A DNA stretch of 64,000 nucleotides from Bacteroidota bacterium (GTDB taxonomy: Bacteria > Bacteroidota > Bacteroidia > B-17B0 > Aurantibacillaceae): contig JAAFIQ010000021.1 of NCBI GenBank assembly GCA_013298715.1, positions 1 through 64,000 of the forward strand. Direction: 5' to 3'. The notes under the pieces are model-generated. The model was not told the origin of the DNA. It saw only the letters and a program-made list of their open reading frames with translations, and made no database searches. Every line of letters starts with the position of its first letter. Position 1 is the first letter of the stretch. Shown here in pieces: positions 20,805 through 57,003 of this stretch. The position numbers and the translations under genes were made by a program.

Positions 20805-22991
20805 ATGAAGTTATCAAAAAAAGTAGTTTTTCTAATAATATTAAATATCACATTTTCTTGTTATTGCCAAAATGGGGTAATTGATTCTCTTCTTAAAGAA
20901 TTAAAAAAATGGGAAAACACAAGTGGTTTAGCGGCAGATACCAATTTGTATTTAATAAATCTTGAAGTTGCAAAAGATTACTTTAACAGAGATTTAGATA
21001 CCTCACTGATTTATGCTAATAAAAGTTTAAAATATGCTCTAAATGTAAACGATACTCTCAAGATTGTGCTGTGTAAAATGCATATCGCAACAATTTTAAT
21101 GTATAAAGGCGATAATCAATCTGCTTTAAAAATTTTTCTCAGCTATCTTCCTTTTATTGAGGCAAAATTAAAAATTTCTCCACATAGTACAAAATATCTC
21201 AACACCGCTGGTAATATGAATAATAGAATAGGCTATTTGTATTACCTTCAATCTAATATTGAAAAAGCGCTTAACTATAATTTTGTTGCGTTAAAGCAAT
21301 TTGAAATTGCAGCTAATAAAAATGCTAAAACTGCCGTGCTTGCAAATATTGGGAACGCCTATACAAAATTGAATGAACACAAGAATGCAATAAAGTATTA
21401 CCAACAGGCCAAAGATTTAGCAAAATCGCAGAATAATTTAAGGCAACTAGATGCAAATTTACTGAATCTAGGTATTTCTTACTCAAGTCTTAATCTTATA
21501 AAAGAGGCAGAGAGCTATTATTTACAAGCGATTAATAGCAATGACGTTGAGGTTTTAGCCAATTGTTATAACGGATTAGGAACCTTGTATCAAGAAAAAA
21601 AAGAATACACACGAGCCCTGTTAAATTTTAAAAATTCTTATGAAAAATATAAAATTATGCAAGATATGCGTGGCGAAAGTATAGCACTTAATAATATTGC
21701 GAATGTTCATATTTTAAAAAAAGAATATTCAAAAGCAGAACAAGTATTACTTGAAGCAATACAAATTGGCTCACAGCAAGGCATGATAGCCGAACTTGAT
21801 GCTTTTTACGAAAATTTACACGAAGTTTATTTTAATACGAATCGGCCTGCTTTGGCGCTGGCAGCCTATAAGAAGCATGTATTATATCGCGATAGTCTTA
21901 AAAATGAAGAAAACCAAAAAGCACTCATTACAAAGGAAATGCAATACGAGTTTGACAAAAAGCAAACTGCCGATAGTTTAAAAACAGTTCAAGAAAAAAA
22001 AGTAGCTCAAATAAAATATGATGAAGAAAAAAGTAAAAATAAATTACGCATAATTTTAGGGAGTAGTATTTTATTTCTCCTTTTATTGTTTACTTTATTA
22101 ATGTATAACCGATTTAAAGCAATCCAAAAGCAAAAAGTTATAATTGAACTAAAAGAAAAAGAAACGCAGTTTCAAAAGCATGTTATTGAAGAAAAACACA
22201 AGGCAATAACAGATAGTATAAATTATGCCGAGCGTATTCAACGCAGTTTCCTTGCCACGAAAGAACACCTTGATTTAAATTTACGTAACTACTTTATTTT
22301 ATTTAAACCTAAAGATGTTGTAAGCGGCGATTTTTATTGGAGCGCAACTCTTAATAATGGTTTGTTTGCATTGGCAATAGCAGATAGCACTGGGCATGGC
22401 GTACCAGGCGCTATTATGAGTTTATTAAACATTAGCAGTTTAGAAAAAGCGATTGAAACCAATGTACAACCATCTGATATTTTAAACGCAACACGCAAAA
22501 CAATTATTGAACGTTTAAAAAAAGATGGCAGTCCAGACGGTGGTAAAGACGGAATGGATTGCAGCCTTTTATGTTTTGATTTTACAAACATGAAACTTTC
22601 TATTTCTGCAGCCAATAACCCTGTTTGGATTGTGCGCCCTAAGCCCGAGGCGAGCGCTGAGGCTCTCGAAGCGCGAGAAGCCACCGTTATAGAAATTAAA
22701 CCCGATAAAATGCCAGTTGGTAAACATGATAAAGACCAAATACCATTTACCCAACAAGAAATACAGTTACAAAAAGGTGATGTAATTTATACTTTAACGG
22801 ATGGCTTTCCTGATCAATTTGGTGGCGAAAAAGGAAAAAAATTTATGAGCAAAAACTTAAAGGAGTTGTTAGCGGCAAATGCTCATTTACCAATGCAAGT
22901 GCAGAAACAACTGTTGGAAAGTACTTTTATAGATTGGGTTGGAAATTTAGAACAGGTAGATGATGTTACACTGATAGGAATAAGAATTTAA
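20805..22991 (+). CDS. TPR-repeat membrane PP2C (SpoIIE-type) phosphatase
   Basis: 728 residues. The signal peptide ends YCQ, and TPR units span roughly residues 50-360 (for example AVLANIGNAYTKLNEHKNAIKYYQQA). A membrane helix lies near 415-435 (ILGSSILFLLLLFTLLMY), then a coiled coil with the signature DSINYAERIQ. A cytosolic SpoIIE/PP2C domain runs from about 494, with metal-binding acidic blocks DVVSGDFYW, ADSTGHGVPGA, GKDGMDC and EQVDDVTLIG. A periplasmic TPR sensor probably controls a cytosolic serine phosphatase. It heads a cluster of three such paralogs. Confidence 0.9.
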   Translation: MKLSKKVVFLIILNITFSCYCQNGVIDSLLKELKKWENTSGLAADTNLYLINLEVAKDYFNRDLDTSLIYANKSLKYALNVNDTLKIVLCKMHIATILMYKGDNQSALKIFLSYLPFIEAKLKISPHSTKYLNTAGNMNNRIGYLYYLQSNIEKALNYNFVALKQFEIAANKNAKTAVLANIGNAYTKLNEHKNAIKYYQQAKDLAKSQNNLRQLDANLLNLGISYSSLNLIKEAESYYLQAINSNDVEVLANCYNGLGTLYQEKKEYTRALLNFKNSYEKYKIMQDMRGESIALNNIANVHILKKEYSKAEQVLLEAIQIGSQQGMIAELDAFYENLHEVYFNTNRPALALAAYKKHVLYRDSLKNEENQKALITKEMQYEFDKKQTADSLKTVQEKKVAQIKYDEEKSKNKLRIILGSSILFLLLLFTLLMYNRFKAIQKQKVIIELKEKETQFQKHVIEEKHKAITDSINYAERIQRSFLATKEHLDLNLRNYFILFKPKDVVSGDFYWSATLNNGLFALAIADSTGHGVPGAIMSLLNISSLEKAIETNVQPSDILNATRKTIIERLKKDGSPDGGKDGMDCSLLCFDFTNMKLSISAANNPVWIVRPKPEASAEALEAREATVIEIKPDKMPVGKHDKDQIPFTQQEIQLQKGDVIYTLTDGFPDQFGGEKGKKFMSKNLKELLAANAHLPMQVQKQLLESTFIDWVGNLEQVDDVTLIGIRI

Positions 22992-25467: not shown

Positions 25468-27465
25468 GTGAATAAGTTTATTATAAATATAGTTGTTTTT
25501 ATTGTTTTTAAATCTATTTGCTATTCGCAACAAAAAGTTGATACTACGTTAGCTAAAATTAATAAACAGTTTCACGATACAGTTAATGCAAGAATTCTTT
25601 ACGCCGATGCGGATGAGCTTAGTAAAATAGATCCAAGCCTCTCAATCACTTACTTAAATAAAGCTTTAAAGTTTGCACAAAATAATAACAGTAAAATAAT
25701 TTTATCAGATATTTATAACAAACTTGGCTATTGCTATTATTTTACCAATGAGTATAGTTTAAGTTTAAAAAATTTTATACTTGCGCTTGAGTATTGCGAA
25801 AAATTGAATAATCCATCTGGTATTGCAGCATGTTACAATAATATCGGTTCTATTTATCTTGATATTAAGGATACTACCAATGCTTTAAGAAATCATTTAA
25901 AATCTTTGGAAATTCGGAAAACATTAAAACCTGTTGATGAAACAGTTAAAGGACAAATTTCTATGTCTTATGGAAACATAGGTAAAACTTATTTTACAAT
26001 GGGTAGGCTTAGCAAAGCTATGGATTATTACAAAATGAGTTTAAAAATTTCAAAAGAGATTGGTAACAAAAATAGAGAAGCATTAATGCTGAATAACATG
26101 GGAAGCATTTATGGCGAGCAAAAAAATTATGCAGAAGCCTTCCGTTATTTCTCGGAGGCCTACGTGATTTATAAGCAGCTTAACTCCAAGGAGAATAGTG
26201 CTTTATGCCTCAATAATATTGCTGAAATTAACTTCCGAACACGCCGTTATTTTAAAGCAATAGAAAGCTATAATGCATCTTTAGAAATATCTAGCGAAAT
26301 ATCTGGGCTTTCAGATATGGAGACAAGTTACACTGGCTTGTATAATTGTTACTTACAAATGAAAGATTATAAACAAGCGCATAATTATTTGGTGTTGTCG
26401 AATAGCATACACGATTCAATTTTTAGCGAAGAAAACACGAGCGAATTAAATAATCTAAAAGCCAAGTTTGATGCCAACTCACGCGAAAAAGAAATTAAAT
26501 TATTAACTGCAGATAAGGCATTAAAAGACATTAAAATCCGAAATGCAAATATTGTAACGTATGCATCTATTTCTGGAATATTAATATTAAGTGCTTTTGT
26601 ATTTTATGTTTTTTATCTGTTAAAGCAGAAACAAAAAATTAATCAAGAATTGAATTCAAAGAATGAAAAAATTGAATACGCCTATCAATTGGTTGATGCA
26701 AAGCAAAAAGAAATTTTAGATTCAATTAATTATGCTAAACGCATTCAAAATGGTTTAATAGCAAACAAGAAAGAGTTAACCAAGTATTTCCCAAACAACT
26801 TTATATACTACAATCCAAAAGATATTGTTAGTGGGGATTTTTCTTGGACAAATTATTCAAAAAATGAATCAAATGAAGAATTGTTTTACCTTGCCTGTTG
26901 CGATAGCACTGGTCATGGTGTGCCAGGAGCATTTATGAGTTTGCTAAACATGTCGTTGCTGAGTGAAGCAATAAATGAGAAGAAAATTTTTGAACCAAAT
27001 TTAGTTTTTAATCACATTAGGCTTAGGCTTGTTGATTTGATTGGCGCCGAAGGGCAGCAGGACGGATTTGATGGAACTTTACTTTGCTTAAATTTATCGA
27101 ATAAAAAAATAACCTATGCTTCTTCTAATAACGGTGGTTTATTAGTTAAGCCTGATGGAAGTTTTGAAGAATTAAGTTATGATAAAATGCCGGTTGGTAA
27201 AGGTGAGAAAGAGAATAGTTTTTTACTTTACGAACTAAACTACAGCCAAGGCGATAGTGTTTATTTGTATACCGATGGATTTGCTGATCAATTTGGTGGA
27301 CCAAAGGGAAAAAAATTCAAATACAACCAATTTATTGCTACACTAATAAATGTTAGTACTTTGCCGATTGATAAACAACAAAAAGAACTTGAATTAATTT
27401 TTAATAACTGGCAATCAAATCACGAACAGGTAGATGATGTTGAGGTTATAGGCATAGTGTGTTAA
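25468..27465 (+). CDS. TPR-repeat membrane PP2C (SpoIIE-type) phosphatase
   Basis: 665 residues. GTG 25468 gives a complete signal peptide (MNKFIINIVVFIVFKSICYSQ). TPR units follow to about residue 330 (GKTYFTMGRLSKAMDYYKMS), a membrane helix near 364-386 (ISGILILSAFVFYVFYLL), coiled coil and signature DSINYAKRIQNG. The SpoIIE/PP2C domain from about 443 has DIVSGDFSW, CDSTGHGVPGA and EQVDDVEVIG. It differs from the 20805 paralog throughout the TPR region, so the two probably sense different things. Partners (anti-sigma or anti-anti-sigma proteins) are not in the window. Confidence 0.9.
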   Translation: MNKFIINIVVFIVFKSICYSQQKVDTTLAKINKQFHDTVNARILYADADELSKIDPSLSITYLNKALKFAQNNNSKIILSDIYNKLGYCYYFTNEYSLSLKNFILALEYCEKLNNPSGIAACYNNIGSIYLDIKDTTNALRNHLKSLEIRKTLKPVDETVKGQISMSYGNIGKTYFTMGRLSKAMDYYKMSLKISKEIGNKNREALMLNNMGSIYGEQKNYAEAFRYFSEAYVIYKQLNSKENSALCLNNIAEINFRTRRYFKAIESYNASLEISSEISGLSDMETSYTGLYNCYLQMKDYKQAHNYLVLSNSIHDSIFSEENTSELNNLKAKFDANSREKEIKLLTADKALKDIKIRNANIVTYASISGILILSAFVFYVFYLLKQKQKINQELNSKNEKIEYAYQLVDAKQKEILDSINYAKRIQNGLIANKKELTKYFPNNFIYYNPKDIVSGDFSWTNYSKNESNEELFYLACCDSTGHGVPGAFMSLLNMSLLSEAINEKKIFEPNLVFNHIRLRLVDLIGAEGQQDGFDGTLLCLNLSNKKITYASSNNGGLLVKPDGSFEELSYDKMPVGKGEKENSFLLYELNYSQGDSVYLYTDGFADQFGGPKGKKFKYNQFIATLINVSTLPIDKQQKELELIFNNWQSNHEQVDDVEVIGIVC

Positions 27466-47470: not shown

Positions 47471-47823
47471 GATTTTTTAGTTTAAAAATCAAAGAATCGC
47501 TTTTAAAATAACCAAATTTTGCTTTGACTAGAAATGTAATTATTTTATTAGTATTTTCTTTCTTTCAATCGTTTGGACAAGTTTCAAAAATAAAGGTTAA
47601 GAAGTTAGAACCGTCGCCTGCTTTATTTCCGGGTGGCAGAGACAGTTTGACTAAGTATTTCAGTAAGGCAATCGTTCAGAAGTTAAACTTCCGCTCAGAT
47701 AATCCTAAAAAAATCAATTTCCGAGCATGGGTGGATATTAATGAATTAGGTTTGGTTACCAAAGTTGAGTTAACAAATGGTTCTACTATACCAGACATTG
47801 ATACTTTGTTTGTTGATCAAGTA

Positions 47824-48083
47824 GGGTTCACTTAAAATGTATAAAAATTAGCTGAATCGACCTGCCTACGGCGGGCACGGGCAGCGAAGTGAAGATGTAT
47901 ATAAATACTTCGAACTGAGCTAACGATGAGTCAGCTAATTTTTATCAAGCCAAAAGAAATAAAAAAACTCTATTTTTTAGTGCAAGGATTTTCTCAAAAA
48001 ATTTCAAAAAGCTTTGCATATAAAAATGGATTTAATCCTTAAATCACTTGTTAATTGGCATATTTGCGTTTTTGAGTGAACCC
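47824..48083 (+). mobile_element. MITE-like non-coding element, copy 1 (260 bp)
   Basis: The ends are inverted repeats: GGGTTCACTTAAAA at the left, and on the right the reverse complement GGGTTCACTCAAAA (one mismatch in 14). The target duplication CAAGTA flanks it at 47818-47823 and 48084-48089. It has no open frame of note. Inside is a 13-bp perfect hairpin (47843-47855 with 47931-47943), an inner CGAAGT/ACTTCG stem and a second AAGGATT/AATCCTT stem. Relative to copy 2 it has an extra GC-rich palindrome-like block (CCTGCCTACGGCGGGCA). The transposase that moves it is unknown. Confidence 0.88.
47843..47943 (+). repeat. Internal hairpin of element copy 1
   Basis: AAAAATTAGCTGA at 47843-47855 pairs without mismatch with TCAGCTAATTTTT at 47931-47943. 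The pair G47851/C47934 is A55683/T55748 in copy 2, so pairing is kept while the bases differ. Confidence 0.8.
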
Positions 48084-48221
48084 CAAGTAAGAAAAATGCC
48101 TATGTGGATTCCTGCAAAGAATGACAAAGGGTAAGCCATCAAAGACAAACAGTTTATTCCTTTTAATGTAAAATTTGAATGATAGAATTAACTAGTTTAT
48201 CAGTTTAAAGTTAGACTAAAA

Positions 48222-53220: not shown

Positions 53221-55320
53221 ATGATTACTCAAAAATTTTTTAAAACCTTAACCATCTCAGCCATTGTAATTTCTGCTTCGGCTTTTACACTAAAAAAGTA
53301 TGTGTTCGATAAAAACGACGTTATTTTTGAATTACTATTTGGAAGTCTTGGGCAATACCATTATTCGCCAGCAAAAGTTGATGATGCTTTTAGTGAAAAA
53401 GTTTTTGATTTGTATTTAAAAAGAATTGATTACTCAAAAAAATTTATTTTGCAAAGCGATTACGATGAGTTAGCAAAATCAAAAAAAGATTTAGATGACC
53501 AAATTTTAATTCGTAATCATGATTTTTATAAAAAGTCAGTAGAGATAATTATACAACGTACCAAAGAAAAAGAAAATTGGGCTACTGAAATTCTTTCAAA
53601 ACCTTTTGATTACAAGACAAATGAAGAGTATGAGAGTGATGGCGAAAAATTGAGCTATGCTAAAACAGAAACTGAGTTAAAAGACGAATGGCGAAAAATG
53701 TTGAAATTACAAGTTTTAGGTAGAATAGACGATGAGTTAACACGACAAGAAAAAGCAATTGAAAAGAAAGATACAACGGTAAAAATTAAGTCTTTTGATA
53801 GTGTTGAGGTAGATGCGCGCAGAAAAACTTTAAAAGCTAATTTGGCTTGGTTTAAACGTTTATCAAAAATAAAATCGGCAGAACGCTTTGGTTATTTTGC
53901 AAATTCGGTAGCTAATGTATACGACCCACACACTGAATATTTTGCCCCAGTAGATAAAAAGAAATTTGATCAAAATATGAGCGGACAATTTGAAGGAATT
54001 GGCGCACGCTTGCAATATACCGATGATGCCTTAACTATTAGTGAAATAATTATGGGTAGTCCAAGTTTTAAACAAGGCGAATTAAAAGCAGGAGATAAAA
54101 TATTAAAGGTAGCACAAGGCAAAGGCAAGGCGGTTGATATTACTGGTATGGAAATGGATGAGGCCATTGATTTAATTAAAGGTAAAAAAGGAACAGAAGT
54201 TATTTTAACAGTTAAAAAGAAAGATGATAACTCTATTAAAAATATTAGCATCATTCGTGATGTGATTGAAATGGAAGAAACATTTGCAAAAAGTGCACTC
54301 CTTGAAAACAAGCAAAAATACGGTTATATTTATTTGCCATCTTTTTACACCAATTTTAATAGAAACGATCCAAGTTCGGCACGTTACTGCTCACGCGATA
54401 TGCGCAAAGAGATTGAAAAATTAAAAAAACAAAACATTAAAGGGCTTATTGTAGATTTAAGAGACAATGGTGGTGGCTCTTTGCAAGAAGTAGTTGAAAT
54501 GGCAGGCTTGTTTTTTAGCAAAGGTCCAGTTGTGCAATCACGAGGAAAAAACAATTCGTTAGCTGTTTTAGAGGATAAAAATCCTGAAATACTTTGGGAT
54601 GGACCTTTAACCATTTTAATAAATCACAATAGTGCAAGTGCCAGTGAAATTTTGGCTGCTGCTATGCAAGATTACAAACGTGCTGTAATTATTGGCACAC
54701 AAAGTTATGGCAAAGGTACGGTACAAAGTTTTGTTGATTTAGATACGTGGTTGTTACCGCAATTTGATACCATTAAACCTGTAGGTTCTGTAAAAATTAC
54801 TCAACAAAAATTTTATAGAATTAATGGGGGCGCAACGCAGCTTAAAGGTGTAATGCCAGATATTGTTTTACCAGACCCATATGAGTTTTTAGATTTAGGT
54901 GAGAAAGAAATGGATAACCCAATGCCTTGGGATGAGGTTAAAAAAGCTGATTATGTTGAGTTTAATACCATTAACTATAAAAATATATTAAAAAATAGTG
55001 CTTCAAGAGTTAAGAATAGTTCTCAGTTTTCTCTAATTGACGCACAAGCAAAAGAAATTAAAGCCAAGCGTGATGACACCAAATACAATTTGAATTTAGA
55101 AAAATACAGAGCCGAAAATAAAATTTTGCGCGATCAAAATAAAAAATACGAAGAGCTAACAAAAGAAATAAAAGGCTTTACAGGTAATTTATTAGAAGAA
55201 GATAAATCTAAGTTTGGAGGCGATACAACTAAAGCCGGACGTGAAGTGCGCTGGGCCAAAGCCAAATCCAAGGATGTATATATTTACGAAGCTACAAATG
55301 TGTTAGGGGAGATGAAGTAG
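53221..55320 (+). CDS. Tail-specific (carboxy-terminal processing) protease, S41 family
   Basis: 699 residues, the long Prc type. An N-terminal signal anchor (TISAIVISASAFTL) is followed by a helical domain (about 30-235) and a PDZ domain (about 260-335, GELKAGDKILKVAQG). The S41 catalytic core has Ser473 (NHNSASASEI) and Lys498 (SYGKGTVQSF), 25 residues apart as in E. coli Prc. A DUF3340-type end is rich in Lys/Glu. It degrades or trims periplasmic proteins from the C-terminus. It has its own complete promoter. Confidence 0.95.
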   Translation: MITQKFFKTLTISAIVISASAFTLKKYVFDKNDVIFELLFGSLGQYHYSPAKVDDAFSEKVFDLYLKRIDYSKKFILQSDYDELAKSKKDLDDQILIRNHDFYKKSVEIIIQRTKEKENWATEILSKPFDYKTNEEYESDGEKLSYAKTETELKDEWRKMLKLQVLGRIDDELTRQEKAIEKKDTTVKIKSFDSVEVDARRKTLKANLAWFKRLSKIKSAERFGYFANSVANVYDPHTEYFAPVDKKKFDQNMSGQFEGIGARLQYTDDALTISEIIMGSPSFKQGELKAGDKILKVAQGKGKAVDITGMEMDEAIDLIKGKKGTEVILTVKKKDDNSIKNISIIRDVIEMEETFAKSALLENKQKYGYIYLPSFYTNFNRNDPSSARYCSRDMRKEIEKLKKQNIKGLIVDLRDNGGGSLQEVVEMAGLFFSKGPVVQSRGKNNSLAVLEDKNPEILWDGPLTILINHNSASASEILAAAMQDYKRAVIIGTQSYGKGTVQSFVDLDTWLLPQFDTIKPVGSVKITQQKFYRINGGATQLKGVMPDIVLPDPYEFLDLGEKEMDNPMPWDEVKKADYVEFNTINYKNILKNSASRVKNSSQFSLIDAQAKEIKAKRDDTKYNLNLEKYRAENKILRDQNKKYEELTKEIKGFTGNLLEEDKSKFGGDTTKAGREVRWAKAKSKDVYIYEATNVLGEMK

Positions 55321-55655
55321 GATATGGAATCGCAGTTTTTTTGGAGAATGCAATAAGAGATTTATAATTAACGTGAATAGAATATGCTTCACCGTGATTA
55401 ATGGATAGAAATTACTTATGAGGATTTACCGTATGCCGCTTAAGTCGTAGTCCTCTTCTTGTTTTTCGACTTGCAATTCTGTCAACTATAATGTTATTTT
55501 TTACACAATAACGATAAAGAATAGATCTTAACTCTTCAAAATTTGAAAAATCGTTTGGGCTAATTTCTATTGTAGTTTTTGAATTGAAAGTTATTTTTAT
55601 AGGACTGCTATATAACAATGTTACATCGTCGGTAGTTAAATCCATTGTGTAATTA

Positions 55656-55897
55656 GGGTTCACTCAAAATGTATAAAAATTAACTGAATCGAGGCAGCGA
55701 AGTGAAGATGTATAGAAATACTTCGAGCTGAGCTAACGACGAGTCAGTTAATTTTTATCAAGCCAAAAACGCAAAGAAAACTCTATTTTTATCTGTAAGG
55801 ATTTTCTCAAAAGAGTTTAAAAAAACTTTGCATATAAAAATGGATTTAACCCTTACATCTATTATCAATTAGCATATTTGCGTTTTTGAGTGAACCC
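55656..55897 (+). mobile_element. MITE-like non-coding element, copy 2 (242 bp)
   Basis: Perfect 14-bp inverted ends (GGGTTCACTCAAAA) and flanking TAATTA at 55650-55655 and 55898-55903. TAATTA is itself a palindrome, so it alone could be read as longer ends. The rejoining of the interrupted gene and the non-palindromic CAAGTA of copy 1 show a 6-bp duplication. It is the same element as copy 1, clearly diverged, lacking the GC-rich block, and in the same orientation. It carries the same hairpins and encodes nothing. Confidence 0.88.
55675..55756 (+). repeat. Internal hairpin of element copy 2
   Basis: AAAAATTAACTGA at 55675-55687 pairs without mismatch with TCAGTTAATTTTT at 55744-55756. It is the counterpart of the copy 1 hairpin with one swapped base pair. 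Confidence 0.8.
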
Positions 55898-56301
55898 TAA
55901 TTATAGCTTGTTGGCTTAAATGGCTTTAGTCCCCAAGTGAAATTTGTAATTGTACTTAACAAAAATTCTTCTTTGGTTACCCATTTATAGTTAGTTAACT
56001 TAAAGTAATTGCCTTCTATCCAAACATGTTCTTGCGTTACATAAAAGTACCGTAATACAAGTAAACAAACAAAGGTAGAAATAAAGCAAGCGGGAAGGTA
56101 AAAATCGAGTAGTGTAACATTTGATTTAGAGCTGGAAATCGAATAAAAGAATGTGCATAAATTAAATAGGGTCCAAATAATTATTGGAAATGATAGAAAG
56201 TGTTTATTGATTTTAGATTTAAAGTGCATCTTGTAAATTTGATTTCAGAAAGTCTTAAATGAAAAAATAAATCCTAAATGAAATAGAAATTGGCGGTGCT
56301 T

Positions 56302-57003
56302 TCACTTCCCAAAAAATAACCACACGGCATCGGTGCTGAGAGGTTTGCTACTTACACTTACTGGTTCTTGCTTTATAGGGTGCGTAAATTGTAATTCGTA
56401 ACTGTGTAGGTGAATAAAGCCGCCTTTGTTACTTCTATCAAAACCATATTTTAAATCGCCTTTTATTGGGCAATTTATTTTTGCCAATTGACAGCGTATT
56501 TGATGGTGACGACCAGTGAGCAAATTAATTTTCAGTAAGTAATAATTATCGCTTTTATTTATAAGTTCGTATTCTAATTCTGCTTTTAGTGCATTGTTCA
56601 CAGGGGTGTCAAAAGCCTTGCTGGTGTTTGTTTTTTCGTGCTTAATTAAGTAATGTGTAAGTTTATCTTTTTCTTTTGGTGGACTATTTTTTACAACCGC
56701 CCAATATTTTTTTTCTATACCGCGCTCACGAATTAATTCATTAAATCGTGTAAGTGCCTTGCTCGTTTTTGCAAAAATTACCAAACCGCTTACTGGCCTA
56801 TCAATGCGGTGTATTACACCGCAAAACACATTACCAGGTTTATTATCACGTTGTTTAATGTAGGCTTTAATAAGTTCAGGTAAAGGCACATCGCCAGTTT
56901 TATCTCCTTGCACAATTTGTCCGGCTAACTTATTTACAACCATAATATGGTTGTCTTCGTAAACAATTTGTTCTTTATAAAATTTTGTTGCTAAAAATTC
57001 CAT
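56302..57003 (-). CDS. RluA-family pseudouridine synthase
   Basis: 233 residues. Catalytic Asp68 lies in HRIDRPVSGL, a variant of the usual HRLDxxTSG. Further motifs are NKLAGQIVQGD, LLTGRHHQIRCQLA and GDLKYG. There is no S4 domain, so it is the short RluA/RluC-like form. The target RNA is unknown. It starts with TAATG, sharing one base with the stop of the redoxin-like gene, so the two are probably co-translated. Confidence 0.92.
   Translation of the reverse strand: MEFLATKFYKEQIVYEDNHIMVVNKLAGQIVQGDKTGDVPLPELIKAYIKQRDNKPGNVFCGVIHRIDRPVSGLVIFAKTSKALTRFNELIRERGIEKKYWAVVKNSPPKEKDKLTHYLIKHEKTNTSKAFDTPVNNALKAELEYELINKSDNYYLLKINLLTGRHHQIRCQLAKINCPIKGDLKYGFDRSNKGGFIHLHSYELQFTHPIKQEPVSVSSKPLSTDAVWLFFGK

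Follow-up and report, generated by a model that had tools for sequence, protein, structure and literature searches.

Copy 2 of a repeated element in the window, the 64,000-nucleotide stretch of DNA analysed here, is very probably one of about forty MITEs that arose in a species-specific burst, were moved in trans and, in this instance, split the 189-codon frame of a small membrane protein. The element is a gene-less, non-autonomous transposon (MITE), bounded by terminal inverted repeats and flanked by a duplicated 6-bp target. It is from these ends and from exact duplications in many copies throughout the genome that the insertion is established, and not from the manner in which the two flanking reading frames join. 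The features of the site are as follows.

55656–55897, no strand assigned: element copy 2, a 242-bp MITE with no internal ORF of at least 50 aa
55650–55655: target site duplication, left copy, TAATTA
55898–55903: target site duplication, right copy, TAATTA
55656–55669, plus strand: left terminal inverted repeat, GGGTTCACTCAAAA
55884–55897, minus strand: right terminal inverted repeat, GGGTTCACTCAAAA
55673–55758, plus strand: inner hairpin 1, a long A+T-rich stem kept in the consensus fold of 35 sequences
55897–56229, minus strand: upstream fragment, 110 aa
55412–55663, minus strand: downstream fragment, 83 aa as listed, with a GTG start inside the element end
55412–56229, minus strand: split gene, 189 codons and a stop after removal of the element and one TAATTA, of no known family

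Copy 2 starts with GGGTTCACTCAAAA and ends with TTTTGAGTGAACCC. The upstream fragment stops at a TAG that spans the junction: its TA belongs to the duplication and its G is the element's first. All three frames entering copy 2 from either flank are closed by a stop within 11 codons, and in frames that stop at codon 0 on entry the stop is the TAA of the target itself.

The genome is a 4.01-Mb draft of 46 contigs, and at least 43 BLAST matches to the element are found on many of them, a count that rests on scoring 40 of 104 first-look candidates. Exact occurrences of the 14-base end number 36 forward and 34 reverse, whereas the same bases read backward, used as a control, occur 0 and 0 times. 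An exact 6-bp duplication flanks 29 of the 44 left-right end pairings, compared with 5.3 when the right flanks are shuffled among copies; the 15 pairings with no exact duplication include some false pairings or old copies. It is on this genome-wide evidence that the 6-bp duplication proposed in the initial annotation holds. Among the 29 exact pairings the columns of the duplication read T in 27, A in 29, mixed, mixed, T in 29 and A in 28, which gives TANNTA. Since the two middle bases vary among copies yet match across each copy, the duplicated stretch is the full six bases rather than TA alone. In one copy (L005) it is 7 bp.

The paired copies that were aligned (n = 43) range from 150 to 286 bp in length. 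Identity to the nearest neighbour is mostly 94–99%, with a few older copies at 59–92%. Most of the length variation is due to two modules of 18–19 bp, palindromes of the CCTGCC type, which hairpin 1 may contain or lack; in two forms of about 150 bp (L055 and L056) hairpin 1 itself is missing. The two palindromic modules, of the CCTGCCTACGGCGGGCACGG and CCTGCCTGCGGCAAGCAGG types, are mixed in varied combinations across the subfamilies, a pattern suggestive of repeated loss or of exchange among copies by recombination. At one locus (L028, C32:1434–1975) two copies lie back to back, a few bases apart: one is old, 83% identical to its nearest copy, and the other, at 97%, is younger. The family looks undescribed, although MITEs as a kind are already known: the open-licence literature yielded no described match for it. 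The 10-mer GGGTTCACTC occurs in 62 papers; among the matches listed, the titles are mostly animal physiology or other unrelated work.

Two minus-strand ORFs of 110 aa and 83 aa flank copy 2, as the initial annotation described, and removal in silico of the 242 bp together with one TAATTA does join them in the same frame, as KPTSYN-YTMDLTTDD, in an open frame of 189 codons. The same annotation took this join as independent proof of both the element boundaries and the duplication, and here the argument fails. When the element alone is removed the frame is still open, now with 191 codons, and deletions of 242, 245, 248 or 251 bp each leave a long open frame. Since the 6 bp of the duplication are divisible by three, the join determines the length modulo three only and cannot prove either the boundaries or the duplication. 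More generally, no duplication of a length divisible by three can be proved by an in-frame join.

The next matter is whether the joined frame was ever a gene. From the sequence it is likely that the insertion of copy 2 split a real protein gene, and this claim rests on the length of the frame, because there is no convincing homolog and the codon score falls below those of all training ORFs. Stops make up 0.076 of the codons in local intergenic DNA, and at this rate a run of 189 codons without a stop in a given frame has P ~3e-7; for the fragments taken separately the same model gives 1.6e-4 (110 codons) and 1.4e-3 (83 codons). Agreement of the two pieces in frame is by itself a 1-in-3 event. 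Two hydrophobic segments lie near the N-terminus of the 189-residue product: hydropathy exceeds 1.6 in 19-residue windows beginning at residue 11 and at residues 38–47, both in the upstream piece. The earlier designation as a membrane protein fits these segments, and hydropathy is its sole basis.

Relatives of the 189-residue protein were sought widely. The upstream piece has a match in 0 of 59 relatives. Among 394 other genomes of the class the joined protein gave weak partial matches only and no convincing homolog; matches at E <=0.1 occur in 46 genomes (own excluded), three of them at E <1e-3, and those three contain stops or are partial. When 19 of these loci were fetched and re-aligned, the matches were read as chance: they are partial, of low identity and unrelated in length. 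In a collection of 84,980 species 50 stretches fit the peptide pattern, none of which was confirmed as a homolog, and PDB gave no match. A Pfam search returned nothing for the joined protein and only sub-threshold matches for the separate pieces. Thus the continuous 189-residue homolog that had been proposed as a check is not to be seen, in convincing form, in any of these sets.

The neighbourhood was compared by way of the adjacent pseudouridine synthase gene, which is present in 40 genomes. Thirty of its loci were examined, 29 of them from relatives, and the TlpA-like neighbour is kept in 27 of these 29. The orphan and the S41 protease are absent downstream of the pseudouridine synthase gene in all 29 relatives (E up to 0.01) within the stretch examined, which was about 1500 bases per locus and only 954, 464 and 70 bases in three. 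As the orphan is missing from the examined stretch in every one of these relatives, they offer no empty site at which copy 2 could be checked. Two separate genes at this place in relatives, which would have spoken against a single gene, are likewise not seen at the 29 loci.

These results bear on two other readings of the site. The MITE may be real and its surroundings non-coding, so that the 189-codon frame is a chance one or the two pieces never formed one gene. The lack of a protein relative in all of the collections above is what such a reading would predict, most copies of the family are indeed intergenic, and codon usage in the joined frame is poor: it scores −0.083 per codon, whereas the 36 ORFs of the window that served as the training set score −0.059 to 0.361 (mean 0.204). 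Against it stand the 189 open codons, at a G+C content of about 30%, the frame agreement of the two pieces and the protein-like look of the two hydrophobic segments, and we consider it unlikely. Alternatively, precise and reversible excision could switch the 189-residue gene on and off, since exact loss of the element and one duplication would restore the frame. However, no empty site, circular form or transposase was found with one assembly per genome, and bacterial MITE insertions are usually stable. There is no sign of any past excision of copy 2, whose removal was made in silico only, and a switch of this kind is highly improbable. The reading that we favour remains the insertion of a MITE into a gene, and other copies of the family help to place it.

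Copy 1, the other copy in the window, also lies inside an ORF.

47824–48083, no strand assigned: element copy 1, 260 bp, of the same family as copy 2, inside another ORF
47818–47823: copy 1 target site duplication, left, CAAGTA
48084–48089: copy 1 target site duplication, right, CAAGTA
47527–48134, plus strand: ORF interrupted by copy 1, with homologs that are gapless through the insertion point

The joined protein at copy 1 has matches at E <=1e-3 in 16 relatives (17 of 40 genomes when the own genome is included). In 9 of 9 aligned homologs, which share 25–37% identity with it, the insertion point is crossed without a gap (VDQV/RKMPMWIPA vs, for example, LDAT/NKMPKWKPA). Judged from the alignments, these are uninterrupted homologs rather than proven orthologous empty sites. 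In the genome as a whole, a frame of at least 80 aa runs across the rejoined site in 8 of the 44 pairings, one of which is a false pairing. Four intragenic insertions are taken seriously: copy 2 (L001), copy 1 (L022), L004 and L027. The ORF split at L027 has a single weak relative, in G062 (E 2.2e-4). For L004 Pfam gives TPR-like matches below threshold, and for L022 and L027 it gives nothing of use. At L001 and L027 the split gene has few relatives or none, which fits insertions that survive in dispensable genes.

The setting of the copies is skewed. With ORFs of at least 100 aa called mechanically, 25 of the 41 copies in the own genome lie between convergent ORFs, 14 between tandem ORFs, 1 between divergent ORFs and 1 in an unknown setting. 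For comparison, the window contains 44 neighbour pairs, among them 7 convergent and 6 divergent ones. Of its intergenic bases 25% fall in convergent gaps, two of which are those that hold the MITEs; the convergent excess has P = 5e-7 for 25 of 40. Either counter-selection of insertions that disrupt promoters or some advantage of lying at gene ends may explain the skew.

Another reading is that the repeat is maintained as a functional structured RNA or DNA, for instance as a two-way terminator between convergent genes, with mobility secondary. Besides the orientation of the copies, strong folding speaks for this: as a single strand copy 2 folds far better than its shuffles, with z-scores of −6.96 as DNA and of −8.33 and −6.32 as RNA of the two strands. 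The consensus fold, computed from 34 of the 43 own copies and one copy from G043, retains the terminal stem and hairpin 1, but hairpin 2 is reduced to 6 pairs. Its covariation term is −0.02 and two-sided changes occur at 5 of 48 consensus pairs, and therefore the fold gives no demonstration of selection for structure. Moreover, there is no terminator-like site in 55300–56350 and no match to Rfam 15 at the gathering threshold in the window, the orientation skew is equally well explained by selection against insertions in promoters, and copies inside genes have the same structure. A maintained structural role is quite improbable, more so than a non-coding target site.

Outside this genome, substantial matches to the element are present in 3 of 39 congeners (G052 at 77%, G043 at 78% and G044, with a 116-base piece, at 79%), and eight further genomes of the genus have short matches only, of 22–42 bases. 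As far as these comparisons go, the burst appears to be species-specific. The biology of the insertion is ordinary. The exact 15-mer end occurs in 7 of 395 genomes of the class, at 35 sites in the own genome, 21 in G374, 10 in G255 and one in each of four others; these four are at background level, as the backward control is itself found once apiece in five genomes. Within the class, G255 and G374 are placed in families different from that of the own genome. In the sites examined there (10 of 10 in G255 and 10 of 21 in G374) the ends enclose MITEs of about 280–540 bp whose interiors differ from that of the own element, and exact duplications flank 5 of 10 pairings in G255 and 4 of 13 in G374, all of them TANNTA. 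Element DNA had no match in plasmids and phages, and the G255 element none in plasmids. An exact 20-mer of the element was found 0 times in a contig collection from which the own genome was possibly left out. An exact 18-mer match in a viral contig (L068) was read as chance, the surroundings being coding-looking and having no second end.

Longer forms with these ends also exist. In G255 a 1754-bp form (L153, 2849–4602) has the same ends, a TAATTA duplication and an IS110-family transposase inside. In G374 a tandem array of 17 copies of a 21-bp unit (L159, 843–1198) lies within a 1469-bp form with these ends, and a similar array (L162, 2738–3208) lies beside rather than inside a paired element.

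An autonomous partner was sought at the end sites of the own genome left over after pairing, and no transposase was found there apart from a nested IS in L054. A profile search with one Pfam family, PF01609 (DDE_Tnp_1), in three genomes, the own one being a draft of many contigs, gave six matches in G000, G255 and G374, none of them flanked by these ends, the nested IS again apart. L054 (1046–2739; C1:86245–87938) was itself rejected as an autonomous copy, being a MITE copy into which an IS is nested. This IS, bounded by CTACTGTGTGGACACAA, interrupts hairpin 1; its ORFs are broken, and one fragment matches Tnp_DNA_bind (PF14706), as in Tn5-like IS4 elements. L153 was rejected likewise, as a MITE plus an IS110-family transposase. 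The enzyme may have been lost, may lie in an assembly gap or may be of a family outside PF01609.

A mechanism for copy 2 can be proposed as follows. A transposase of the DDE type, which we infer by analogy together with its cut-and-paste mode, would act in trans and cut TANNTA, here TAATTA, with a 6-bp stagger. The GGGTTCACTC ends of the element would be joined to the cut target, and gap repair would then copy the six bases on both sides. The target would have been the frame of a lineage-specific, dispensable small membrane protein, which would end at the TAG of the junction, so that a 110-residue piece remains and the tail is silent; the two frames are seen directly, and a real gene that is now inactive is presumed. 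A wider version of this scheme is tentative and rather unlikely as a whole: a single kind of transposase, with a 6-bp TANNTA stagger and little need of anything beyond GGGTTCACTC, would move MITEs of unrelated interior in at least three families (those of the own genome, G255 and G374), and the own copies, marking convergent gaps, might end transcription from both sides.

In size, inverted ends, target, non-coding nature, fold and location the element resembles prokaryotic MITEs in general, which are described as shorter than 500 bp, non-coding, with terminal inverted repeats, an A+T-rich target, short direct repeats and a folded interior, and as mostly intergenic with some intragenic copies (PMC10969869, PMC2229807). 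It differs from them in its GGGTTCACTC ends with the 6-bp TANNTA duplication, and in that no parent IS was identified. MITECca01 of Cardinium (PMC9769881) is similar in length (~240 bp), phylum and lineage-specific spread; it is moved in trans by its parent ISCca4 of the IS982 family, whereas no parent was found here. BrickBuilt of Porphyromonas gingivalis is also a Bacteroidota MITE and has a minisatellite, to which the tandem array inside the long form L159 of G374 may be likened. Our element does not belong to BrickBuilt: the published ends of the latter, GAGACCTTTGCA, are most like IS5-family ISPg elements and differ from GGGTTCACTCAAAA (PMC4596501). RUP of pneumococcus is small, multi-copy, bounded by inverted ends, provided with stops in all frames and moved in trans, but inserts at TA and is tied to IS630-Spn1, whereas the present element duplicates six bases and is linked to no IS (PMC2229807).

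Copy 2 offers a gene-breaking MITE insertion seen at base resolution. The split orphan gene is of little consequence in itself, and the more useful result is that Bacteroidota-like genomes harbour a group of MITEs whose 6-bp target, TANNTA, is constant. Finding the enzyme would yield a new tool-sized element for study.

Elsewhere in the window, a 70-bp direct repeat of 76% identity (22774–22843 and 27248–27317) lies in two long plus-strand ORFs, which are probably paralogous genes.
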